From: Alphaproteobacteria bacterium
GTDB lineage: Bacteria; Pseudomonadota; Alphaproteobacteria; Acetobacterales; Acetobacteraceae
NCBI GenBank assembly: GCA_017307285.1
Contig: JAFKFI010000065.1
Coordinates: 1 to 64,000, forward strand
Reading direction: 5' to 3'
DNA: 64,000 bases
This document shows positions 43,398 to 62,984 of the stretch, in pieces. The translations under genes were made by a program, and so were the position numbers. How positions within the stretch are numbered: the stretch's first letter is position 1; each line of letters starts with the position of its first letter. The notes under the pieces were generated by a model that worked only from the letters and a program-made list of their open reading frames with translations, had not been told where the DNA came from and did no database searches.

Positions 43398-44214
43398 GCA
43401 CCGGCGCCTCCAACACGATCCGATCGGGATGGGTGAACACCTCGAACCCGTCGCCGCGCGCGATCCCGATCAAGGTGATCCCTACCTCGGTTGCGACCCG
43501 CAGCGCGAGCGCGGTCGGCGCCGAGACCGCCATGATGATGGGCGAGCCGATCATCGCGGTCTTCTGCACCATCTCGACCGACACCCGGCTGGTCAGCACG
43601 ACAACGCCGTGCGAGGCGTCAATGCCTCGCCGCGCCAGCGCACCCGCGAGCTTGTCGAGCGCGTTGTGCCTCCCGACATCCTCGCGCACCAGTACGATAC
43701 CGTCAGGTTCCGTCCAGAACCCCGCCGCATGGACCGCGTGCGTCGCTGCGTTGAGCGACTGCCATTCCGAGAGTGCGGCCGGCGCCACCGCCAGCGCATC
43801 AGCCGGGACGCGCAATGCCCCGCGCACGGCAGGCGGTGACCGGGCCGCTTCCGCCAGGCTCTCCATCCCGCAGAGCCCGCAACCGGTGGCGCCCGTCAGG
43901 AATCGCCGCCGGTGCAGCAGCGCGTCCATGCGCCCGCCGGCGACCGACATGCGGAGTTCGATCCCCTGCTCGGCCTCGACGATCTCCAGCTCCTCGATCT
44001 CCGACGGGGCGGCGATGATCCGCTCGGCGAGGCTGAAGCCGACCCCGAAATCCTCGAGATCAACGGGGGTCGCCATCATCACGGCATGGGTCATGCGGCC
44101 ATAGGTGAGCGCGATCGCTGTCTCCTCGGGGATATCGCGGCTGCCGCGCGCCGCGCCGCTCGCCCGCCATGACGTCACGGGAACCGAGAGGTGGGCGGGC
44201 GGCGTGCCGCTCAT
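43387..44214 (-). CDS. fdhD: Formate dehydrogenase accessory sulfurtransferase FdhD
   Basis: 275 residues from ATG 44214, which overlaps the fdsA stop by four bases. FdhD passes sulfur from IscS to the molybdenum cofactor of formate dehydrogenase. The catalytic cysteine motif CGLCG is in TGATGCGLCGMESLAEAA. C-terminal LVREDVGRHNALDKLAGAL and MIGSPIIMAVSAPTALAL are standard. Needed for FdsA activity, which fits its place in the operon. Confidence 0.93.
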   Translation of the reverse strand: MSGTPPAHLSVPVTSWRASGAARGSRDIPEETAIALTYGRMTHAVMMATPVDLEDFGVGFSLAERIIAAPSEIEELEIVEAEQGIELRMSVAGGRMDALLHRRRFLTGATGCGLCGMESLAEAARSPPAVRGALRVPADALAVAPAALSEWQSLNAATHAVHAAGFWTEPDGIVLVREDVGRHNALDKLAGALARRGIDASHGVVVLTSRVSVEMVQKTAMIGSPIIMAVSAPTALALRVATEVGITLIGIARGDGFEVFTHPDRIVLEAPVHVG

Positions 44215-47045
44215 TCCGCCGCGAGGATGCGCCGGCTCGTCTCGGAGTGTGCGCGGTAGCTCTCCTGCCACTCCGTCGGGCCGTTGGCGCGCGACACCTG
44301 CACAGCCGTAACCTTGTATTCCGGGCAGTTGGTCGCCCAGTCCGAGTAGTCGGTCGTCACCACGTTGGCCTGCGTCGTCGGGTGATGGAAGGTGGTGTAG
44401 ACCACGCCGGGCGCGACGCGCTCCGTCACCTGCGCGCGCAGGCTGGTCGCGCCCGCGCGGCTTTCCAGGCGAACCCAGTCGCCGTCGCGGATTCCGCGCT
44501 GCTCGGCATCGTGCGGATGCACCTCGAGCCGGTCCTCCCCATGCCAGACCGTGTTATCCGTGCGCCGCGTCTGCGCGCCGACATTGTACTGCGTCAGGAT
44601 GCGCCCGGTGGTAAGCAGTAGCGGGAAGCGCGGCCCCGTACGCTCGTCGGTGGGGAAGAACTCCGTCACAACGAAATTGCCCTTCCCGCGTACGAAATGG
44701 TCCTGGTGCATCACCGGCGTTCCGGTCGGCGCTGCGTCGTTACATGGCCACTGGATGGAGCCTAGCTCGTCGAGCTTGGCAAACGATACGCCGGCGAAGG
44801 TCGGCGTGGTGCGGGCGATCTCGTCCATGATCTCGGAGGGATGCGAATAGTGCCAGTCGCAGCCGAGCGCGTGGGCGATGGCGAGCGTGATCTCCCAATC
44901 CGCCATCCCTCCCTTCGGCCGTACCGCGCGACGCACCATGCCGATCCGGCGCTCGGCGTTGATGAAGGTGCCGTCCTTCTCGAGGAAGGTGGAACCGGGC
45001 AGGAACACGTGCGCGTAGTTCGCCGTCTCGTTGAGGAACAGATCCTGCACCACGACCAGCTCCATCGCCGACAATCCGGCGATGATGTGGCGCGTATCGG
45101 GATCGGACTGCGCGATGTCCTCGCCCTGGATGTAGAGGCCCTTGAACGAGCCATCAATCGCCGCGTCGAGCATATTCGGGATGCGTAGGCCTGGCTCGGG
45201 GTCGAGCGACAGCCCCCACTCCCGCTCGAAGATGCCGCGCACTTCGGGATTGGCGACGTGGCGATAGCCTGAGAACTCGTGCGGGAAGGAGCCCATATCG
45301 CAGGAGCCCTGCACGTTATTCTGCCCGCGCATCGGGTTCACGCCGACACCTGGCCGGCCGATATTGCCGGTCGCCATCGCGAGATTTGCGATGGCGATGA
45401 CGGCGGTGGTGCCCTGCGTGTGCTCGGTAACGCCGAGCCCGTAATAGATCGCGCCGTTACCGCCGGTCGCGTAGAGCCGCGCGGCACCACGAATCAGTTC
45501 AGCCGGCACGCCGGTTAGCGGGGCGACGGCTTCCGGCGAATTGCGGGGCTCGGCGACGAATGCGGCCCAGTCGGCGAACGCCTCCCCGTCACAGCGCTCA
45601 CGGACGAAGGGCTCGTCCACCAGACCCTCGGTAACGATGACATGGGCCAGCGCGTTGAGCATCGCGACATTGGTGCCAGGCCGCAGTGCGAGATGGAATG
45701 CCGCCTCGACATGCGGCATCCGCACAAGGTCGATCCGCCGCGGGTCGATTACGATGAGCTTGGCGCCAGCGCGCAGCCGCCGCTTGAGCTGCGAGGCGAA
45801 TACGGGATGCGCGTCAGTCGGGTTGGCGCCCATGACAACGACAACGTCGGCGTGCTCGACGCTATCGAAGTTCTGCGTGCCCGCCGAGGTGCCGAAGGTG
45901 GTGCTGAGGCCGTAGCCGGTCGGCGAGTGGCAGACGCGCGCGCAGGTGTCGATGTTGTTGTTGCCGAAGCCGGCGCGCACCAGCTTCTGCATGAGGAACG
46001 TTTCCTCGTTGGTGCAGCGCGAGGAGGTGATGCCGCCGATCGCGCCGACGCCATACTCGCGCTGGATGCGGCGGAAGCCGTCGGCCACGCGGCCGATCGC
46101 CTCTTCCCATGTCGTCTCGCGCCACGGATCGGTGATTCGTTCGCGCACCATCGGCTTGAGGATGCGGTCGCGATGCGTGGTGTAGCCCCAGGCAAAGCGG
46201 CCCTTGACGCAGGAATGCCCGTGATTGGCGCCGCCGTCCTTGTAGGGGACCATGCGGATGACTTCCTCGCCGCGCATCTCCGCCTTGAAGCTGCAGCCCA
46301 CGCCGCAATAGGCGCAGGTGGTGATGATCGAATGCTCCGGCTGCCCGACCTCGATCACCGATTTCTCGATCAGGGTCGCGGTCGGGCAAGCCTGCACGCA
46401 GGCACCGCAGGAGACGCATTCGGACTGCAGGAAGCTCTCGCCCATGCTGGGCGACACAACAGAATCGAAGCCGCGCCCCTCGATGGTCAGAGCGAAGGTG
46501 CCCTGCACCTCCTCGCAGGCGCGCACGCAACGCGAGCAGACGATGCACTTGGCGGGGTCGAAGGCGAAATACGGGTTGCTTTCGTCCTTCGCGGTGTCGA
46601 AATGGTTCGCGCCCTCCATGCCGTAGCGCACCTCGCGCAGGCCGACCGCGCCCGCCATGTCCTGCAGTTCGCAATCGCCGTTCGCAGCGCAGGTGAGGCA
46701 GTCGAGCGGATGGTCGGAGATGTAGAGCTCCATGACACCGCGCCGCAGCCGCGCAAGCCGATCATTCTGCGTCGTTACGACCATGCCCTCGACAACTGGC
46801 GTGGTGCAGGAAGCCGGCGTGCCGGCGCGACCCTCGATTTCCACAAGGCACAGTCGGCAAGAGCCGAACGCATCCAGCGAGTCGGTCGCGCAGAGCTTAG
46901 GCACCTGGATGCCGGCAAGCGAGGCGGCGCGCATCACCGAGGTGCCTTCCGGCACGCTCACCGCAAAGCCGTCGACTGTCACACTGACCATCCGATCGGA
47001 GCGGGCGGCCGGCGTGCCGTGATCGGGTTCCTTCAGCATAAGCAT
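44211..47045 (-). CDS. fdsA: NAD-dependent formate dehydrogenase alpha (Mo) subunit
   Basis: 944 residues from ATG 47045 (AGGAGG upstream). Oxidises formate to CO2 at a bis-MGD molybdenum centre. Cluster ligands: 2Fe-2S Cys52/63/66/80; His112-Cys116-Cys119-Cys125; two ferredoxin-type 4Fe-4S sets Cys167/170/173/177 and Cys210/213/216/220; and Cys244/247/251/279 next to the Mo domain. The Mo ligand is Cys372 in DTCARVCHSPTGYG, so this enzyme is the cysteine, not the selenocysteine, form. Soluble complex with FdsB and FdsG, electrons going to NAD+. Operon order fdsG-fdsB-fdsA-fdhD-fdsD. Confidence 0.95.
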   Translation of the reverse strand: MLMLKEPDHGTPAARSDRMVSVTVDGFAVSVPEGTSVMRAASLAGIQVPKLCATDSLDAFGSCRLCLVEIEGRAGTPASCTTPVVEGMVVTTQNDRLARLRRGVMELYISDHPLDCLTCAANGDCELQDMAGAVGLREVRYGMEGANHFDTAKDESNPYFAFDPAKCIVCSRCVRACEEVQGTFALTIEGRGFDSVVSPSMGESFLQSECVSCGACVQACPTATLIEKSVIEVGQPEHSIITTCAYCGVGCSFKAEMRGEEVIRMVPYKDGGANHGHSCVKGRFAWGYTTHRDRILKPMVRERITDPWRETTWEEAIGRVADGFRRIQREYGVGAIGGITSSRCTNEETFLMQKLVRAGFGNNNIDTCARVCHSPTGYGLSTTFGTSAGTQNFDSVEHADVVVVMGANPTDAHPVFASQLKRRLRAGAKLIVIDPRRIDLVRMPHVEAAFHLALRPGTNVAMLNALAHVIVTEGLVDEPFVRERCDGEAFADWAAFVAEPRNSPEAVAPLTGVPAELIRGAARLYATGGNGAIYYGLGVTEHTQGTTAVIAIANLAMATGNIGRPGVGVNPMRGQNNVQGSCDMGSFPHEFSGYRHVANPEVRGIFEREWGLSLDPEPGLRIPNMLDAAIDGSFKGLYIQGEDIAQSDPDTRHIIAGLSAMELVVVQDLFLNETANYAHVFLPGSTFLEKDGTFINAERRIGMVRRAVRPKGGMADWEITLAIAHALGCDWHYSHPSEIMDEIARTTPTFAGVSFAKLDELGSIQWPCNDAAPTGTPVMHQDHFVRGKGNFVVTEFFPTDERTGPRFPLLLTTGRILTQYNVGAQTRRTDNTVWHGEDRLEVHPHDAEQRGIRDGDWVRLESRAGATSLRAQVTERVAPGVVYTTFHHPTTQANVVTTDYSDWATNCPEYKVTAVQVSRANGPTEWQESYRAHSETSRRILAAE

Positions 47046-47055
47046 CGCAGCCTCC

Positions 47056-48606
47056 TCACGCCGCGACGCGGCGTGCAGTGGAAAAGTCCTCGGGGAAATG
47101 CGTGAGCGCACTCATCACCGGCAGTGGCGTGAGGCCGCCGAGCGCGCAGAGCGAGCCGAGACGCATCGTGTCGCACAGGTCGCGCAGCAGCACGAGATTC
47201 TCGCTCGTGCGCTCGCCGGCCACGATGCGGTCGATCACCTCCATGCCGCGCACCGAGCCGATGCGGCAGGGCGTACATTTTCCGCAGGACTCGAAGGCGC
47301 AGAACTCCATCGCGAAGCGCGCCTGCTTCGCCATGTCCACGGTGTCGTCGAACACCACCAACCCCCCGTGGCCGAGCAGGCCGTCGCGTGCCGCGAGGGC
47401 TTCATAGTCGAACGGCGTGTCGAACAAGGAGGGCGGGAAATACGCCCCGAGCGGGCCGCCCGCTTGCACCGCGCGCACCGGCCGGCCGCTCGCCGTGCCG
47501 CCGCCGATGTCGTAGACGAGTTCTCCAAGCGTCATGCCGAACCCCGCCTCGAACAATCCCGCGTGGCGGATGTTGCCGGCGAGTTGAATCGGCATCGTGC
47601 CGCGCGAGCGCCCCATGCCGATCGCCGCGTAGGCCTCCGCGCCGTCGGCCAGGATCGTCGGCACCGCCGCGAACGAGAGAAGATTGTTCATCACGGTCGG
47701 CTTGCCGAACAAGCCGCGATGAGCGGGCAGCGGCGGGCGAGCGCGCACCATGCCGCGCTTGCCCTCCAGGCTGTCCAGCAGCGCGGTCTCCTCGCCGCAC
47801 ACATACGAGCCGGCGCCGCCCCGCACGCTCATGTCGAAGCTGAACGCCGAACCCTGGATGTGGGCACCGAGCAGCCCCGCCGCCCGTGCCGTGTTGATCG
47901 CGGCGTTCATCGTCTCGATCGCGTGCGGGTATTCGGAGCGGATGTAGACGAAGCCCTCGCTGGCGCCCGTCGCTAGTGCGGCGATGGTCATGCCCTCGAT
48001 CAGCAGGAAAGGGTCGCCCTCCATGATCATGCGGTCGGCGAAGGTGCCGGAATCGCCCTCGTCGGCGTTGCACACGATGTATTTCGGGGTGCCCTCGGCG
48101 CGCAGCACGGTCTGCCACTTGATCCCCGTCGGGAACCCGGCCCCGCCGCGCCCGCGCAAGCCAGAGCGGCTCACCTCATCCACGATTGCCACCGGGCCGA
48201 GCGACAGGGCGCGCTCCAGCCCGCGATAGCCGCCATGCGCGCGGTATTCGGCGAGCGAGCGCGGATCGATGATGCCGCAGCGGGCGAAGGTGAGACGGGT
48301 CTGCCGCGCCAGGAAGGGCAACGCCTCGGGCCGGCCAAGCCGCAGCGGATGCGCGCCGCCCGCCAACAAACCCGCGTCGAGCAGCCCTGGCACGTCCGCA
48401 GCCGCCACCGGGCCGTAGGCAACGCGACCCCCTGGCGCTTCAACCTCGACCATCGGCTCGAGCCAGTAGAGCCCGCGCGAGCCGGTCCGCACGATCTCGG
48501 CTTCCTGGCCGCGCTCGCGCAAGCCCGCGGCAAGCGCGCCGGCGACATCTTCGGCACCGACGGCGAGCGCCCCGGCATCGCGCGGCACGAACAGCCGGGT
48601 GGTCAT
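47056..48606 (-). CDS. fdsB: NAD-dependent formate dehydrogenase beta (NADH/FMN) subunit
   Basis: 516 residues from ATG 48606, four-base overlap with fdsG. N-terminal thioredoxin-like part, then the NuoF-like module: NADH-binding RGRGGAGFPTGIKW (about 151-164), FMN-binding CNADEGDSGTFADRMIMEGD (about 179-198), and the 4Fe-4S cysteines 441/444/447/487 in ESCGKCTPCRIGSVRG and LCALGG. It takes electrons from FdsA/FdsG to NAD+. Ten bases separate it from fdsA. Confidence 0.94.
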   Translation of the reverse strand: MTTRLFVPRDAGALAVGAEDVAGALAAGLRERGQEAEIVRTGSRGLYWLEPMVEVEAPGGRVAYGPVAAADVPGLLDAGLLAGGAHPLRLGRPEALPFLARQTRLTFARCGIIDPRSLAEYRAHGGYRGLERALSLGPVAIVDEVSRSGLRGRGGAGFPTGIKWQTVLRAEGTPKYIVCNADEGDSGTFADRMIMEGDPFLLIEGMTIAALATGASEGFVYIRSEYPHAIETMNAAINTARAAGLLGAHIQGSAFSFDMSVRGGAGSYVCGEETALLDSLEGKRGMVRARPPLPAHRGLFGKPTVMNNLLSFAAVPTILADGAEAYAAIGMGRSRGTMPIQLAGNIRHAGLFEAGFGMTLGELVYDIGGGTASGRPVRAVQAGGPLGAYFPPSLFDTPFDYEALAARDGLLGHGGLVVFDDTVDMAKQARFAMEFCAFESCGKCTPCRIGSVRGMEVIDRIVAGERTSENLVLLRDLCDTMRLGSLCALGGLTPLPVMSALTHFPEDFSTARRVAA

Positions 48607-56968: not shown

Positions 56969-57946
56969 ATGATGATCGCGCGCCGTGCCTTGCTCGCCGC
57001 CGCATTGGGCGCCGTCGCGACACCGCTGCACGCCGCCACGTTGCCAGCCATACGAGTTGGGCTGCTGCGGTTCGGCACGGTGTCGTGGGAGATCGAGGTC
57101 ATCCGACGGCACGGGTTCGATGCGGCGGCTGTCGCGATCGAGCCGGTGCAGTTCGCCACCTCTCAAGCCACTCAGACGGCGCTGCAAGCCGGCCGGGTCG
57201 ACATGGTGGTGCTGGACTGGCTGTGGGTATCACGCCAGCGCAGCGAGGGCGCCGACTGGACTTTCGTCCCGTTCTCCACTGCCACCGGCGGACTTGTCGC
57301 CCCGGCGGGATCGCCGGTTCGCGAATTGCCCGATCTGAAGGGCCGCCGGCTCGGCGTCGCGGGCAGTCCGCTCGACAAGAGCTGGCTGATCCTGCGGGCC
57401 TACGCCAAGGAGCGCTTCGGCTTCGATCCCGACCGGGCGACCGAGCGAAGCTTCGGCGCGCCCTCGCTGCTGCTGGAGGAGGCGAAGCTCGGGCGGCTCG
57501 ACGCGATGCTCAATTTCTGGCCCTTCGCGGCAAAGGCGGAGGCGATCGGCATGCGGACGGTCCTGCCGGTCGAGGACGCCGTGCGCGGCCTCGGCATCGA
57601 CGCCAAGGTGCCGTTCATCGGCTACGTGTTCTCGCAAGGTTGGGCCGAGCGCAACCCGGCCGCACTGGCCGGCTTTCTCGCAGCCGCGGGCAAGGCGCGC
57701 GATGTGCTGGCCACCTCGGATGCCGAGTGGGAAACGCTAATGCCGCTCACCGGTGCCGCCAATCAGGCCGAGCTCGAGCACCTGCGTGCCCATTACCGCC
57801 GTGGAATTCCGAGGGCCTGGGGACCGGCGGAGCAGCGAGCCGCCGCACGGCTCTACGGAATTCTGGCGAAGATCGGCGGGCCGACACTGGTCGGCTCCGC
57901 GAACGCCATCGCACCGGGGACATTTTGGCCGGCAGCCTCACTCTGA
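56969..57946 (+). CDS. ABC transporter substrate-binding protein (SsuA/NMT1-like)
   Basis: 325 residues. Signal peptide ARRALLAAALGAVATPLHA. The mature part starts IRVGLLRFGTVSWEIEVIRR and contains TALQAGRVDMVVLDWLWVS, LKGRRLGVAGSPLDKSWLIL, and PFIGYVFSQGWAERNPAALA, the pattern of nitrate/sulfonate/taurine-type binding proteins. First gene of a seven-gene run ending in the two paralogues; ATG 56969 or 56972 with GGGGAGG upstream. It should bind the compound that the UGSC system handles. The family takes up sulfonates, thiamine precursors and other small organics, so the substrate is open. Confidence 0.85.
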   Translation: MMIARRALLAAALGAVATPLHAATLPAIRVGLLRFGTVSWEIEVIRRHGFDAAAVAIEPVQFATSQATQTALQAGRVDMVVLDWLWVSRQRSEGADWTFVPFSTATGGLVAPAGSPVRELPDLKGRRLGVAGSPLDKSWLILRAYAKERFGFDPDRATERSFGAPSLLLEEAKLGRLDAMLNFWPFAAKAEAIGMRTVLPVEDAVRGLGIDAKVPFIGYVFSQGWAERNPAALAGFLAAAGKARDVLATSDAEWETLMPLTGAANQAELEHLRAHYRRGIPRAWGPAEQRAAARLYGILAKIGGPTLVGSANAIAPGTFWPAASL

Positions 57947-58722
57947 GCGGGTTCGCGCGTGACCGACGGGCGCGATCCCGTACCTGGACGGCGCCAGGCC
58001 GGCTGCTCTCCTTGCTCGGCTTCTTCGTCCTATGGGAAGCGGTGGCGCGGCTGGTGGGTAATCCCCTGCTGCCACCGGCGAGCAACGTGCTCGTGGCGAT
58101 CGCGCGCGAGACCGCCTCGGGGGCGCTGCCGGAAAATCTTGCCATCACGATGGCCCGCGTCGTCCTCGCCTTCGTCACCTCGATGGTGCTCGGCACGGCA
58201 CTCGGTCTCGCGATGGGGGTCTGGCGCCGGGTCGATGTCGCGCTGGATAGCTGGCTGACGGTACTGCTGAACCTGCCCGCACTCGTCGTGATCGTGCTCA
58301 TGTATGTCTGGTTTGGCATGAACGAGGTAGCGGCGATCGCCGCCGTCGCGCTGAACAAGCTGCCGAGTACCGCGGTGACGGTGCGGGAGGGCGCCCGGGC
58401 GCTCGACCGCGATCTACTGGAAATGGCGCATAGCTTCGGGATGCGGCGCTGGCCGATCATCCGGCACGTCGTACTGCCGCAGATCTATCCCTATCTGTTC
58501 GCCGCTGCGCGCTCGGGCCTCGCCATCATCTGGAAGATCGTGCTGGTCGTGGAACTGCTCGGGCGCAGCAACGGCGTCGGATTCCAGATCCAGGTGTATT
58601 TCCAGTTATTCGACGTCACCGGGATTCTTGCCTACACGCTATCCTTCATCTTGGTCGTGCAGCTGATCGAATGGGCCCTGCTGCAGCCGCTCGAGCGACG
58701 CGCATCGCGGTGGCGGCGATGA
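57925..58722 (+). CDS. ABC transporter permease (SsuC-like)
   Basis: About 265 residues, six spans (LLSLLGFFVLWEAVARLVG, VVLAFVTSMVLGTALGLAMG, LTVLLNLPALVVIVLMYVWF and others). EAA loop: LLEMAHSFGMRRWPIIRHVV followed by LPQIYPYLFAA. The start is uncertain: TTG 57925, inside the 3' end of the binding-protein gene, is the best supported; CTG 57943 is possible. Overlaps the ATPase gene by four bases. NitT/TauT-type importer. Confidence 0.85.
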   Translation: MAGSLTLSGFARDRRARSRTWTAPGRLLSLLGFFVLWEAVARLVGNPLLPPASNVLVAIARETASGALPENLAITMARVVLAFVTSMVLGTALGLAMGVWRRVDVALDSWLTVLLNLPALVVIVLMYVWFGMNEVAAIAAVALNKLPSTAVTVREGARALDRDLLEMAHSFGMRRWPIIRHVVLPQIYPYLFAAARSGLAIIWKIVLVVELLGRSNGVGFQIQVYFQLFDVTGILAYTLSFILVVQLIEWALLQPLERRASRWRR

Positions 58723-59429
58723 GCTTGCGGGTCCGCATCCGGGACAAGTCGTTCGACGACAGGCCGGTGCTGAAAGGCCTCGAGTTCGACCTCGGCGAGC
58801 GCGAGATCGTCGCCTTGGTCGGCCCCTCGGGCTGTGGCAAGACCACGCTCCTCAAGATCATCGGCGGCCTGGACCTCGACTATGACGGGACGATCGCCTG
58901 GACCGACGCCGGGTCGCCGAGGATCGGCACGATCTTTCAGGAACCCCGGCTGCTGCCCTGGCGGACCGTGCGGCAGAATCTCATCCTCGTCCTGCCGCCG
59001 TACGCTCATCCCGCCGCGGACGAATTGCTCCGACATCTCGGGCTCTGGCCGTTCCGCGACCATTTTCCGCCGACGCTGTCGCTCGGCATGGCGCGGCGCG
59101 TCGCGATCGCGCGGGCCTTCGCCATCGCGCCGGAACTGGTGCTGCTTGACGAGCCGTTCGTCTCGCTCGACCCCGAGATGGCGCAGCGCAGCCGAGACGT
59201 GCTGCTCGAGGCGTGGCGCCAGCGCGCCACCTCGGTGCTGCTCGTGACGCATGATCCGGTGGGAGCGGCGGCACTCGCCGACCGAATTCTTGTCATGTCG
59301 CCACGCCCGGCCCGAATCGTCACGCAAATCGAGGTGCCGGCGGCCCAGCGCCGCAGCGACCACCCCACAGCACTGCAAGTCGCCGCCCAGTTGGAGGTCG
59401 TGGTCGGGCAGTATCTCGCGCGGACATGA
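58719..59429 (+). CDS. ABC transporter ATP-binding protein (SsuB/TauB-like)
   Basis: 236 residues. Walker A GPSGCGKTT (35-43), Q-loop Gln74 in FQEPRLLPW, signature LSLGMARRVAIARA (about 120-133, the second Gly-Gln replaced by Gly-Met), Walker B LVLLDEP (140-146), H-loop His178 in LLVTHDP. FQEPRLLPWRTV is the SsuB/TauB hallmark. The start is ATG 58719 overlapping the permease stop. Followed 66 nt later by the flavoprotein gene. Confidence 0.9.
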   Translation: MSLRVRIRDKSFDDRPVLKGLEFDLGEREIVALVGPSGCGKTTLLKIIGGLDLDYDGTIAWTDAGSPRIGTIFQEPRLLPWRTVRQNLILVLPPYAHPAADELLRHLGLWPFRDHFPPTLSLGMARRVAIARAFAIAPELVLLDEPFVSLDPEMAQRSRDVLLEAWRQRATSVLLVTHDPVGAAALADRILVMSPRPARIVTQIEVPAAQRRSDHPTALQVAAQLEVVVGQYLART

Positions 59430-59495: not shown

Positions 59496-60431
59496 ATGCC
59501 GGAATGCTGGGATGTCGTGGTGATCGGCGCGGGACCGGCGGGGCTCACGGCGGCGCAGGTCGCCGGCGCGTCGGGGCTAAGCTGCCTCTGCATCGACCGC
59601 CTCGGTCCGGGGGGCGAACTCATCAATCTCGGGCTCCTGCACGACTGCCCCGATCTTCCGCCCGATACCACCGGCGCCGATCTGGTGACGCGCCTGATGG
59701 ATGCTGCAACCGCCGCCGGGGTCGAGCTGGCGTTCGGCGAGGTTCGGGAACTCCAGCGAGGTGAACCCCGGCGGATCGTCACCGACGACGAGACTTACCA
59801 GGCGCGGACGGTAATCGTCGCGACGGGTCTGACCCCAGGAAGGCTCGGTGTTCCGGAGGAGGAGCGGTTCGACGGGGTTGGTCTGTCCCATTGCGCGAGT
59901 TGCGACGGGCCGCTGTACAAAGGCGAGAATGTCGTGGTCGCCGGCGCGGGCGAGTGGGCCGCTCAAGAAGCGCTCGATCTGGCGGCTCTGGCCGGGCATG
60001 TCACGCTGATCTGCCCTGAGCACGAAGCGGCACGACTCTCGAGCGGGCGCGGCAGGCAGCTTGCCGGTTTGACGAATGTGACCGTGATCCCCGGCCGCAT
60101 CGCCTCCCTGGAAGGCGCGGAGGGGCTGGAGGCGGTCGTCATCGAACGTGCTGCGATCCAGGAGCGACACCCGACGCGCGCCGTGTTCGTGCAATCCAAC
60201 CGGCGCGCGGCGCTGGACTTCACCCGTGGTCTGCTGGCCGTGGAAGCGGACGGCCGCGCGTGCGTCGATGGCGACTTGTGTACGAGTGACGAGCAGGCAT
60301 ACGCTGCAGGTGATGTCCGTGCCGGAGCACCAGAGCGGATCGCCTCGGCGATCGCCGATGGAAGACGCGCGGGGTTGGCGGTGGCGCGGCTCCTACGGGG
60401 ACGGGACGGCGAACAGCAGGGAGGGCGCTGA
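59496..60431 (+). CDS. Thioredoxin-reductase-like FAD/NAD(P)H oxidoreductase
   Basis: 311 residues. FAD motif GAGPAG (11-16), second FAD-binding ATG in VIVATGLTPGRLGVP, NAD(P)H site VVVAGAGEWAAQEA (about 147-160), redox-active Cys133-Ala-Ser-Cys136 in LSHCASCDGPLYKG, and C-terminal YAAGDVRAGAPERIASA that binds FAD. All catalytic parts of TrxB are present, but the NADPH-side residues differ (GAGEWA for GGGxSA), and it sits in an operon with no thioredoxin. The next gene, three bases on, is the UGSC selenoprotein, so I infer it is that protein's reductase or supplies electrons to the pathway. Confidence 0.87.
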   Translation: MPECWDVVVIGAGPAGLTAAQVAGASGLSCLCIDRLGPGGELINLGLLHDCPDLPPDTTGADLVTRLMDAATAAGVELAFGEVRELQRGEPRRIVTDDETYQARTVIVATGLTPGRLGVPEEERFDGVGLSHCASCDGPLYKGENVVVAGAGEWAAQEALDLAALAGHVTLICPEHEAARLSSGRGRQLAGLTNVTVIPGRIASLEGAEGLEAVVIERAAIQERHPTRAVFVQSNRRAALDFTRGLLAVEADGRACVDGDLCTSDEQAYAAGDVRAGAPERIASAIADGRRAGLAVARLLRGRDGEQQGGR

Positions 60432-60434
60432 CTG

Positions 60435-60956
60435 ATGCGCATCGTCAATCCGAGCTTCGGCGTAGCCCCGGCGGGTGCCGAGCAGACCATCATCGGCAAG
60501 GTGAACTGGAACGAGGATCCGATCGTCCTGTTCGCAAACAACAAGCCGAACGCGCGGGAATTGTTGGAAGGCGTGCGCGCCAAGCTGGGCGCGATGCGGC
60601 GCATCGACAACGTCGACTACATCCACAAGAACAGCGCAAGCCAGCCGGCGCCGGGTGCGATGATCGAGGCGGTGGCGCAGAAATATCGCGCGGCCTTGCT
60701 GGCACTCGGCGACTGAGGCTCCTGCTCGTCGTGGAGTTTCCACGACAGTGTCGAATTGAGGAAGCGCGGCGTCGCCAGCCTGGTGATCGCCACTGAGACG
60801 TTTCGCCCGCTCGTGCTGGCGCAGGCCAAGGCGCGCAACGTCGAGCCCCACCTGATCGTCGTCAAGCATCCGGTCGGCGGGCTCAATGCAGCCGAACTTG
60901 CCGAGCGGATCGACGCGGCCTTCGCCGGGCTCGTGAAGGAAATGCAGGCCGAATGA
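60435..60956 (+). CDS. UGSC-family selenoprotein with in-frame TGA read as selenocysteine
   Basis: 173 residues if TGA 60714-60716 (codon 94) is read as selenocysteine. The first half starts MRIVNPSFGVAPAGAEQ and contains PIVLFANNKPNARELLEGV; then LLALGD-U-GSCSSWSFHDSV, and the second half goes on in the same frame: ELRKRGVASLVIATETFRPL, EPHLIVVKHPVGGLNAAEL. U94-G-S-C97 matches the motif that names the UGSC family, in which members carry Sec or Cys at this place. Without readthrough the protein would end one residue before the motif. A SECIS-like hairpin begins 11 nt after TGA, and the true stop overlaps the next ATG (ATGA). The start is ATG 60435 with GGGAGGG upstream. Probably a redox enzyme; the reaction is unknown. 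selA, selB, selC and selD are not in the window. Confidence 0.9.
60714..60746 (+). promoter_or_regulatory. Bacterial SECIS element (UGA plus hairpin)
   Basis: UGA at 60714-60716, an 11-nt spacer (60717-60727), then GTCGTGGA (60728-60735) pairing perfectly with TCCACGAC (60739-60746) around a GTT loop; with the last pair open the loop is AGTTT. Stem length, distance from UGA and a G in the first loop positions agree with bacterial SECIS consensus, as in E. coli fdhF, where SelB binds the apical loop. The element lies within codons 94-104, as bacterial SECIS elements do. Confidence 0.85.
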
Positions 60957-61996
60957 CGGATCAATCCGAGGCCGAGGTCATCGAAATCAGCGAACTCGGC
61001 CCAGAAGACTGGACGGAATACGCCATCGAGCAAGGTTGGAGCGACGGGTTCCCGCTCGTCGCTCCAACCGAAGCCGCGGTCGAGAGGTTCGTGTCGGTGT
61101 GTCGTGGCGACAACGAGCCCTTCCCACCCATCTCGCCGCGCCAGGTCGTCCCGACCTTGCACAGTCTCGCCGCCAATGCCGTCATGGCGGGGTGCCGGCC
61201 GGAGTATTTTCCGGTGTTACTGGCGGCGCTGCGCGGCGTGCTGACGCCTGACTACAATCTGCACGGCACGCTCGCGACAACGCATCCTTGCGCGCCGATG
61301 ATACTGGTGAACGGACCGCTTCGCGACCGGCTCGGCATCAATTACGGGGGCAATTGCTTCGGTCAGGGATGGCGGGCGAACGCAACCATCGGCCGCGCGC
61401 TCGGACTGATCCTGCTGAATGTCGGCGGCGCCAAGCCCGGCGTCATGGACCGCTCCACCCAAGGATCGCCGGCGAAATTCGCCTTCTGCTTCGGCGAGAA
61501 CGAAGAGGCCAGCCCGTGGCCGCCCTATCACGTCCGCCGTGGCTTCGATACAGCGGATAGTGTCGTCACGGTGATGTCGGGCGAAGGGCCACATAACATC
61601 AACGACCACGCAAGCACGACGGGCGAGGGCCTGCTCACTACGATGGCCGCGTCGATCGCGCAACCCGGCGCTAACACCATCTATGGCAAGGGTCCTCATG
61701 TCGTGGCGATCGGGCCGGAGCACGCCGCGACCCTGCATCGTGACGGCTGGACCATCCCGGCGCTGCAGCAGGCGCTGTTCGAGCGCGCCCGGGTCCGCGT
61801 GTCGGACGTCTCGCCGGAGAACCAGGTGCAATACGAGGAATCCGGCCATCACCCAGTCGATGGCCGCTACCCCGTCTCGCCCACGCCGGAGGACATCCAC
61901 ATCCTTGTCGCCGGCGGCCCGGGCAAGCACTCCGCGTGGATTCCGTCCTTCGGCGGCACGGCGGTCTGCTCGGTGCGCGTCAGACTGCCGGATTGA
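60953..61996 (+). CDS. Uncharacterised UGSC-linked protein, paralogue A
   Basis: 347 residues; ATG 60953 overlaps the UGSC stop. No family recognised by me. It begins with an acidic stretch, then GWSDGFPLVAPTEAAVERFV, and three cysteines shared with the next gene: Cys81 in VMAGCRPEYFP, Cys135 in GGNCFGQGWRANATIGRA, Cys179 in KFAFCFGENEEAS. The latter two flank NVGGAKPGVMDRSTQGSP. No signal peptide or membrane span. The two paralogues align over almost their full length and could form a heterodimer that acts with the selenoprotein on the imported compound. Cysteines may bind a metal or form adducts. Confidence 0.8.
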   Translation: MTDQSEAEVIEISELGPEDWTEYAIEQGWSDGFPLVAPTEAAVERFVSVCRGDNEPFPPISPRQVVPTLHSLAANAVMAGCRPEYFPVLLAALRGVLTPDYNLHGTLATTHPCAPMILVNGPLRDRLGINYGGNCFGQGWRANATIGRALGLILLNVGGAKPGVMDRSTQGSPAKFAFCFGENEEASPWPPYHVRRGFDTADSVVTVMSGEGPHNINDHASTTGEGLLTTMAASIAQPGANTIYGKGPHVVAIGPEHAATLHRDGWTIPALQQALFERARVRVSDVSPENQVQYEESGHHPVDGRYPVSPTPEDIHILVAGGPGKHSAWIPSFGGTAVCSVRVRLPD

Positions 61997-62003
61997 ACCC
62001 TCG

Positions 62004-62984
62004 ATGATCGACTCGGCCGAGACGCCACTTTTCGCCGAGACGACGCCCTGGGAGGACGCACAGACGCAGCTGGAGGCGCTCGGCCTGGGCGATGGACTAC
62101 CGCTTGTCCCGCCCACCGCCCGCCGCATGGATCGGATGCTGGCCGGGGTGGTCGACCCCGAACGCTCGTACGGCCCGGTGCCGCCGCTGTTCGGCGACCT
62201 GACCGCCGCCGCCATTGCCTATCAGTGCGTCCTCGCCGGCTGCGTGCCCGCCGAGCTTCGCGTCGTGCTGACGGCAGTCGCCGCGTGCCTGGAGCCGCAA
62301 TTCAACCTGCTCGGCATCCAGACCACGACGGGCACGCCGACAGTTGCAGCGATCGTGCATGGGCCGATCGTCCGCTCGCTCGGCATGAACGCTGAGGGCA
62401 ACTGTCTCGGGCCAGGAAACCGGGCGAATGCCTGCATCGGCCGGGCGGTGCAGCTGGCGCTGACCAATATCGGCGGCGCTCGGCCGGGCATTGGCGACAT
62501 GGCGACGATGGGCCAGCCGGGGAAATACACGTTCTGCTTCGCCGAGGCTGGGAATGCGAGCCTGCCTTCCCTGCCCGCTCGTCGTGGCTTATCCGGCGAT
62601 CATGGCGCCGTCACGGTGCTTGGCGTCTCGGGCACTATGGAGGTGCTTCCTCTTTCCGAAGATGCAACGCCGCAAGGGGTGCTTGGTCCCTTGGCCGCCG
62701 CCATCCGGGGCGCGCAAATAGCCAGCAACGCCGGCCGCGCTCGCCCAGCCAGCGAGCAATTTCTCCTGCTGCCACCAGAGATCTTCGATCGTTTCGCCAA
62801 GGCGGGCTGGACCCTAGCCGACATCCAGGCCGGGATGGTGCGCGCGCTATCCGAGGTCGAGGTCGAATGTTCCGCCGAGGACGTTTGCCCCGTCCTGACC
62901 GGAGGTGCCGGGATCAAGATGACCTATCTCCCCCTCTGGTCGGGTGGCACCCGGTCCGTTACCGCCGAGTTGCTACAGCCCTGA
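62004..62984 (+). CDS. Uncharacterised UGSC-linked protein, paralogue B
   Basis: 326 residues from ATG 62004, seven bases after paralogue A. Aligns with A almost without gaps in the N-terminal half: GLGDGLPLVPPTARRMDRML, Cys80 in VLAGCVPAELR, Cys134 in EGNCLGPGNRANACIGRA, TNIGGARPGIGDMATMGQP, Cys178 in KYTFCFAEAGNAS. It adds further cysteines (Cys75, Cys95, Cys143 and two near CSAEDVCPVL). Last gene of the operon, ending 32 nt before the convergent outer-membrane gene. Function unknown; a subunit partner of A is the simplest reading. Confidence 0.8.
   Translation: MIDSAETPLFAETTPWEDAQTQLEALGLGDGLPLVPPTARRMDRMLAGVVDPERSYGPVPPLFGDLTAAAIAYQCVLAGCVPAELRVVLTAVAACLEPQFNLLGIQTTTGTPTVAAIVHGPIVRSLGMNAEGNCLGPGNRANACIGRAVQLALTNIGGARPGIGDMATMGQPGKYTFCFAEAGNASLPSLPARRGLSGDHGAVTVLGVSGTMEVLPLSEDATPQGVLGPLAAAIRGAQIASNAGRARPASEQFLLLPPEIFDRFAKAGWTLADIQAGMVRALSEVEVECSAEDVCPVLTGGAGIKMTYLPLWSGGTRSVTAELLQP

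Follow-up and report, generated by a model that had tools for sequence, protein, structure and literature searches.

We describe a selenoprotein gene of the UGSC family and the system of genes around it, found in a stretch of bacterial DNA of 64,000 nt, the whole of which we refer to as "the window". The reading that best explains the data, to which we assign a probability of about 0.55, is that the selenocysteine (Sec)-containing UGSC protein and a partner protein encoded beside it form a two-part enzyme, for which we propose a reductive cleavage similar to that of GrdB, the selenoprotein of glycine reductase. UGSC is a known selenoprotein family. What is new is the pairing with the partner, the predicted Rossmann-like fold, and an alignment with the Sec site of GrdB-type proteins. 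Neither the pairing, nor the runs of UGSC genes with Sec-machinery genes, nor the link to GrdB is reported in the open main texts searched (i.e., subscription papers and supplements aside); since the family itself is known, the novelty lies in the system around the gene.

UGSC proteins are among the most common selenoproteins of aquatic metagenomes, to judge from the parts of the surveys consulted. The family accounted for 255 sequences in the 2008 selenoproteome of the GOS data (PMC2398784) and for 8.2% of selenoprotein genes in another survey (PMC9402790), and the UGSC selenoproteins of Geodermatophilaceae have been associated with a tRNA-Sec whose anticodon is CUA (PMC5330540). A 2026 paper places UGSC in a list of selenoproteins with functions "largely uncharacterized" (PMC13188914), and the accessible literature on the family gives it no function, in agreement with an earlier note on this DNA, which had called the function unknown. 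The pairing, the frequent fusion of the two genes, a thioredoxin-reductase-like neighbor and a remote GrdB-type site together turn UGSC from an unknown into an enzyme that can be tested.

An in-frame UGA very probably read as selenocysteine

The following features of the window are discussed below.

56969–57946, + strand: NMT1/SsuA-like ABC substrate-binding protein (profile matches; start and signal peptide assigned by eye)
57925–58722, + strand: ABC permease, SsuC/TauC-like (profile matches; start uncertain)
58671–59429, + strand: ABC ATPase, TauB/SsuB-like (profile matches)
59496–60431, + strand: thioredoxin-reductase-like flavoprotein with a CASC motif (profile matches), ending 3 bases before the UGSC start
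60435–60956, + strand: UGSC selenoprotein gene, 173 aa, with Sec as residue 94 (profile matches, AF2 model)
60714–60716, + strand: in-frame UGA as Sec, the U of U-G-S-C (TGA in 19 close relatives; TGC/TGT in 21 Cys homologues)
60728–60746, + strand: SECIS-like hairpin with an 8-bp stem and a GUU loop at 60736–60738 (RNA fold; loop GU across Sec genes)
60953–61996, + strand: partner A, of an unnamed family (WSDGLP..VMAGC..RANATIGRA; pairing across loci; no NCBIfam or Pfam match)
62004–62984, + strand: partner B, homologous to partner A at 31% identity (no match in NCBIfam or Pfam)

Inside the UGSC frame there is just one TGA, which encodes the U of a U/C-G-S-C motif if read as Sec; the terminal TGA of the frame (60954–60956) overlaps the start codon of the downstream gene in an ATGA configuration. 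The frame is thus open past the internal TGA as far as the next start, as the earlier note had described. Under the standard code, the locus falls apart into a 93-aa ORF (60435–60716) and a 66-aa remnant started by TTG (60756–60956), the split that the note had expected of a gene caller. Its further remark that both halves look like one protein also holds: the joined product matches the Pfam UGSC family (PF24696) with 112.5 bits, against a cut-off of 25, across residues 18–170, and the remnant 3′ of the TGA alone matches NCBIfam NF041046 with 31.3 bits. The window protein shares with the UGSC family (PF24696, NF041046; PMC2398784) its profile, the U-G-S-C motif, the in-frame UGA, and a hairpin after the UGA. 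It differs in belonging to a subgroup with the motif U-G-S-C-S-S-W-S-F-H-D, and scores 108.9 bits with NF041046, under the equivalog cut-off of 125. A second UGSC gene in the same genome, on contig 93, also has one TGA and exceeds that cut-off, with 139.9 bits.

The TGA is conserved in relatives. A search of 200 genomes of the same family found UGSC in 39, with 53 matches, 50 of which were analyzed (a partial match in G050 and two below the cut-off, in G106 and on contig C70 of G033, were left out). Nine same-family orthologues (L079–L082, L084, L085, L087–L089) have TGA at the U codon and an open frame beyond it, and the six that were aligned are 69–77% identical to the window protein; L079 and L080 are not independent, because their protein sequences are the same. 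Ten loci found by way of the partner gene (L097–L100, L102–L106, L108) likewise keep the TGA and the open frame. The frame ends at the motif UGA in none of these 19 close relatives, the second TGA of L098 being its terminal stop. A sequencing error is very unlikely, given that other genomes, as well as the second UGSC copy of the same genome, also carry the TGA.

Bacterial SECIS elements are hairpins located 3′ of the UGA, with G or GU in the loop. The window gene has such a hairpin: its stem begins 11 bases after the UGA, and the GU of its apical loop lies within the eighth codon counted from the TGA. We compared 128 non-duplicate UGSC genes, of which 107 have TGA and 21 have TGC or TGT (three of 131 had been removed as duplicates), leaving aside L092, whose motif is USTC, and matches below 60 bits in L162. 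In the 107 Sec genes, the eighth codon is AGT (88), TGT (15) or GTG (4), such that the loop GU is in the same place in 103 and one base earlier in four. In the 21 Cys genes, it is TGC (16), TCG (3), AGC (1) or ACG (1), and the loop GU occurs in none. For comparison, AGT makes up 9 of 104 serine codons in seven neighboring frames of the window. The stem positions pair in 795 of 856 cells across the Sec genes (92.9%, in counts that ignore kinship); pairing drops to 15.5–48.1% when the 3′ arm is slid by 1–3 bases, and 1,000 shuffles gave at most 741 paired cells. One stem pair (positions 21/27) is G-C in 77 Sec genes and C-G in 30. Cys genes still reach 66.7% pairing in these cells. The protein sequence thus imposes some of the stem, and the loop codon is the cleaner signal. 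The motif itself has variants among the 107 Sec genes, with UGGC in seven and UGAC in five.

The source genome (5.68 Mb in 182 contigs, 98% complete) encodes a full set of Sec machinery. It contains selA (537.7 bits), two selB genes (402.2 bits on contig C162 and 323.7 bits in all on contig C43), a tRNA-Sec with anticodon UCA adjoining the C43 selB, and selD within a 717-aa frame. Among genomes with UGSC, SelB is found in 20 of 20 with a Sec form and one of four with only Cys forms (24 of the 39 UGSC genomes). Of 398 genomes sampled from the phylum, five have UGSC and 52 have SelB (at E 1e-60); SelB accompanies UGSC in three of three genomes with the Sec form and zero of two with the Cys form. 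One of the latter two, G739, which has no SelB match, carries a Cys-type UGSC gene (L233) whose TGA lies outside the motif and of which a second part is in a different frame; this gene looks frameshifted or decayed.

Some relatives have the machinery next to UGSC. In three loci of one genus (L085, L088, L089), selA, selB, tRNA-Sec, the thioredoxin-reductase-like gene, UGSC and the partner are consecutive on one strand. L084 has the same order from selB onward, with selD further on, and in L163 (Minwuiaceae) selA, selB, tRNA-Sec, partner, UGSC and selD share one strand, with other frames interspersed. In these runs, selA was assigned by profile in L088 and L163 (and also in L086), and in L085 and L089 through clustering with them.

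The two SelBs of the source genome (C162, L003/L095; C43, L004/L093) are only about 34% identical. In a tree of 25 of the 26 SelB loci (L218 being absent), drawn without support values, the C162 protein groups with SelBs that adjoin UGSC in relatives, and the C43 protein groups with another type. Two SelBs are likewise present in G021, G077, G143 and G166. The two kinds are possibly tuned to different SECIS elements. No Sec-type formate dehydrogenase was found beside the C43 selB in one 8.4-kb stretch. The window has a formate-dehydrogenase-like gene (44211–47111, − strand) with Cys at what seems by eye to be the usual Sec site, although the genome can make Sec.

Together, the machinery, the relatives, the hairpin and the loop codon strongly support the earlier note's identification of a UGSC-family selenoprotein. 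The three refuting conditions it had named came out in its favor: all four of selA, selB, selC and selD are present, the 19 close relatives examined run through the UGA, and the recurrence of the TGA in other genomes and in the second copy speaks against a sequencing error. The partner, the thioredoxin-reductase-like neighbor, the machinery gene runs of relatives and the link to GrdB go beyond that note. It is almost certain that the UGA at 60714 is read as Sec. A genuine stop at the TGA, or a pseudogene, is barely credible. Such a reading could appeal to the window hairpin taken alone, which folds only modestly better than shuffled sequences (12 of 200 were as good), and to the Rfam scan of the window, which gave no match at gathering score. 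However, it leaves the open frame of 19 close relatives, the loop-codon rule in 107 Sec genes and the complete machinery without explanation.

A partner family and its gene context

The gene that overlaps the end of UGSC encodes a member of a family of ~340-aa proteins, which we refer to as the "partner". Searches of Pfam and the PDB with 20 partner homologues returned chance-level matches only, and the best PDB sequence matches of the UGSC profile (E 0.43) and the partner profile (E 0.089) were also taken as chance. Since the partner has no sequence likeness to anything in these searches, kinship with the pyruvoyl-containing partner in glycine reductase is unsupported.

The association of the two genes is seen from both sides. 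A six-frame profile search showed a partner adjacent or fused to UGSC, on the same strand, in 49 of 50 UGSC loci; the single locus without one, L091, is cut by a contig end. Conversely, an alignment of partner proteins, searched against 84,980 genomes, found at least 582 stretches encoding the family, and the best 80 loci were analyzed. UGSC genes are present in 74 of these 80, a figure that may overstate the link for distant members because the loci are the best-scoring ones and the query was built from UGSC-adjacent partners. Within the 80 loci, 79 of the 82 UGSC matches of at least 60 bits lie no more than 400 bases from a same-strand partner. Four of the six loci without UGSC (L101, L109, L113, L143) are cut by the locus end where the gene could lie; L164 and L166 have both flanks and no UGSC gene. 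The pair occurs in genomes titled as Alpha-, Beta-, Gamma- or Deltaproteobacteria, Chloroflexi, Rokubacteria or Actinomycetospora, and haloarchaea have it with Cys forms of UGSC (L141, L149).

UGSC and the partner are often a single protein. We count 22 secure same-frame fusions in 18 of the best 80 partner loci; 24 stretches had been listed, and L120 and L149 were removed because they are Cys forms in which the single TGA may be the stop codon of UGSC. Fusions can lie side by side, with three in one 13-kb stretch (L170) and two each in L150 and L175. One fusion of UGSC with a domain named "Unknown_1" has been reported (PMC2398784); this domain may correspond to the partner. The model of a natural fusion (L112, 532 aa) has a pLDDT of 93.2 and a pTM of 0.92, so that a fixed packing of the two parts is predicted. 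The window UGSC product is very probably the small catalytic subunit in a two-part enzyme, with the partner (copies A and B) as the second part, and the two proteins would form a complex in the cell.

The CxxC of the thioredoxin-reductase-like protein is conserved throughout its cluster (21 of 21 members). In the 13 loci of the type found on contig 93 (L066–L078, three of them Cys-type), every partner has an N-terminal domain with a CxxC motif. Pfam scans of nine of these 13 domains gave sub-threshold matches to TraF or Thioredoxin_2 in seven and none in two, and for one domain the 14 sequences matched in the PDB were all thioredoxins, at weak E-values of 0.05–0.48; the domain may thus be thioredoxin-like. 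Together with the CxxC of the reductase-like protein and the UxxC site of UGSC, it suggests a reductive cycle fed by thioredoxin or thioredoxin reductase. The second UGSC gene of the source genome is in such a locus (L067, 6489–8520, contig C93), where the partner's N-terminal domain has the motif CPTC; downstream are a lipocalin-like ORF and an ORF for a branched-chain-type substrate-binding protein, both identified by eye.

Uptake genes near UGSC vary by lineage. They are SsuABC-like in the window, and in L100 the neighbors are a branched-chain-type permease, an ABC ATPase, an amidohydrolase and an amidase. In raw counts, a cluster represented by TctC is found in 32 of 130 loci and a family III CoA-transferase cluster in 21 of 130.

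Predicted fold and probable remote kinship with GrdB

The AF2 model of the window UGSC protein (with Cys in place of Sec, from 79 homologues) has a pLDDT of 92.8. Strands and helices alternate in it, five of each, and residue 94 is located between a strand (residues 86–92) and a helix (residues 95–110), an arrangement we read as a predicted Rossmann-like fold with Sec between strand and helix. The 50 listed of 1,767 PDB matches of the model are mostly alpha/beta proteins (NagZ, YsxC, flavodoxin-like, TIR, lumazine synthase), with a query TM of at most 0.53 and no entry named thioredoxin among these 50. By contrast, a thioredoxin-like fold was suggested for UGSC in PMC2398784; given the Rossmann-like model, we reject a thioredoxin fold. 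Foldseek matches of the L112 fusion (50 listed of 1,710; best E 7.3e-4) were assigned to the UGSC part because the top entries repeat NagZ or are small alpha/beta proteins, and nothing among the 50 could be assigned to the partner.

GrdB is found mainly in anaerobes. We searched 289 genomes from the class using the GrdB profile (GRDB, PF07355), and 30 had proteins matching its C-terminal part only. From these, 17 of 30 loci were readable and formed our GrdB-like set, 13 being left out for reasons of strand or motif. The GrdB-like loci (L177–L204) have the motif [U/C]-P-x-C, with TGA in 15 of 17 and Cys in two, and their products are apparently a separate, selenocysteine-using group.

The UGSC profile aligns with that of the 17 GrdB-like proteins with a score of 39.8 (E 1.8e-5, probability 78), placing Sec over Sec. 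Masking the four UxxC columns of both profiles leaves the register unchanged (score 37.4, probability 69), and the controls are lower, with 60 column permutations scoring at most 20.7 and a reversed profile 15.5. Against one GrdB proper (the C-terminal 265 residues of L237, one of five near full-length GrdB loci), the UGSC profile scores 31.0 (probability 38), again with Sec over Sec, and permutations score at most 19.8. The GrdB-like profile matches the same GrdB with a probability of 98.9; the comparison of UGSC with the partner profile gave 0.1.

These alignments are good evidence for a remote relationship in which UGSC and GrdB would share a Sec domain rather than membership of the glycine reductase family. 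At E 1, none of 24 UGSC proteins matched PF07355, and no match to it was found in the source genome. UGSC resembles the GrdB/PrdB-type Sec subunits of glycine and proline reductase (PF07355) in its U-x-x-C motif as well as in the Sec-over-Sec alignment; unlike GrdB, it has no counterpart of the GrdB N-terminal part, and its partner matches no Pfam family. On the model and alignments combined, it is likely that the Sec of UGSC sits between strand and helix in a Rossmann-like domain remotely related to the Sec domain of GrdB.

A possible reaction and its alternatives

No known substrate or activity of any UGSC protein was found, and this, like the variation of the uptake genes by lineage, counts against the reading that follows. 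The importers and enzymes beside UGSC, and the three pairs in L170, lead us to infer substrate-specific enzymes acting on imported small compounds; the UGSC system would then be a thioredoxin-linked reductase or lyase for such a compound. By analogy with glycine reductase protein B, it may cleave carbon-heteroatom (C-X) bonds. Reductive C-X cleavage is our first guess because GrdB, which binds glycine, releases ammonia (PMC13188914), and because GrdB-like proteins have been proposed to act on fluoroacetate, a small acid with a C-F bond (PMC10838667). The fluoroacetate operon of Cloacibacillus described in the latter paper offers a proposed precedent in its GrdB-like proteins and small-acid C-F bond. 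It differs in belonging to a rumen anaerobe and in encoding components of the GrdB complex, a radical SAM oxidoreductase and an antiporter (PMC10838667).

In the cycle we propose, the ABC importer would take up a small organic compound, which the partner would help to bind. The selenolate of Sec would attack the compound and reductively cleave a carbon-heteroatom bond, in the manner of GrdB. Sec would then leave as a selenenyl sulfide with Cys97, and the thioredoxin-reductase-like flavoprotein would re-reduce this bond, either directly or through thioredoxin. We put this cycle as a whole, with its chemistry, electron path and substrate, at somewhat short of an even chance. Broader still, and more tentative, is the view that UGSC and its partner are a new, widespread class of two-subunit, Sec-dependent enzymes for reductive C-X cleavage, a counterpart of GrdB in organisms other than amino-acid fermenters, with haloarchaeal Cys versions, several paralogues per genome, importers and thioredoxin reductases alongside, and a SelB of their own in some lineages.

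Some of the same evidence could fit a general role in redox chemistry or detoxification, in which the UxxC site reduces a peroxide, a disulfide or an oxidized small molecule by way of thioredoxin reductase, with no C-X cleavage. The UxxC motif, the reductase-like neighbor and the CxxC domain fused to the partner all suit such a role, and most selenoprotein families of PMC2398784 are stated there to be homologues of thiol oxidoreductases or to have a thioredoxin-like fold. However, the UGSC model is Rossmann-like, and a large, near-universal partner, with three pairs in 13 kb of L170, looks substrate-specific rather than housekeeping; we consider the general redox role unlikely. The importer raises a different idea, that of a selenocysteine-assisted system for organometal or metal binding similar to Sao (NCBIfam SaoA and SaoP; clostridial, according to the title of the reference), which likewise combines a Sec protein with a nitrate/sulphonate-type ABC transporter. 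SaoP is indeed the top-scoring NCBIfam family for the window permease, and SaoA the fourth for the ATPase. Both are nevertheless far under their cut-offs (98.8 of 295 bits and 122.2 of 360 bits, respectively), the permease scores 98.0 with SsuC and the ATPase 135.3 with TauB, and neither a Sao lyase nor any other Sao family is among the listed matches of the nine window frames scanned. We reject membership of the Sao system on these cut-offs, and a Sao-like function has little probability.

That relatives have UGSC in runs together with selA, selB, tRNA-Sec and selD could instead mean that it is an accessory of selenium metabolism, delivering selenium or repairing the Sec machinery. Against this, the window copy sits with an ABC importer, and Cys forms are present where no SelB match was found (three of four genomes, and two of two in the phylum sample) as well as in haloarchaea, so the function of UGSC does not need Sec; we give the accessory role very little weight. 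GrdB-like reductive cleavage by Sec-UGSC and its partner remains our preferred reading. Around Cys-type UGSC genes, other enzymes are found. Arginase-family genes are nearby in eight Cys loci (L043–L046, L049–L051, L055), as well as in one Sec locus (L059), ornithine-decarboxylase-like genes in eight, and saccharopine-dehydrogenase-like genes in six, perhaps indicating a polyamine context.
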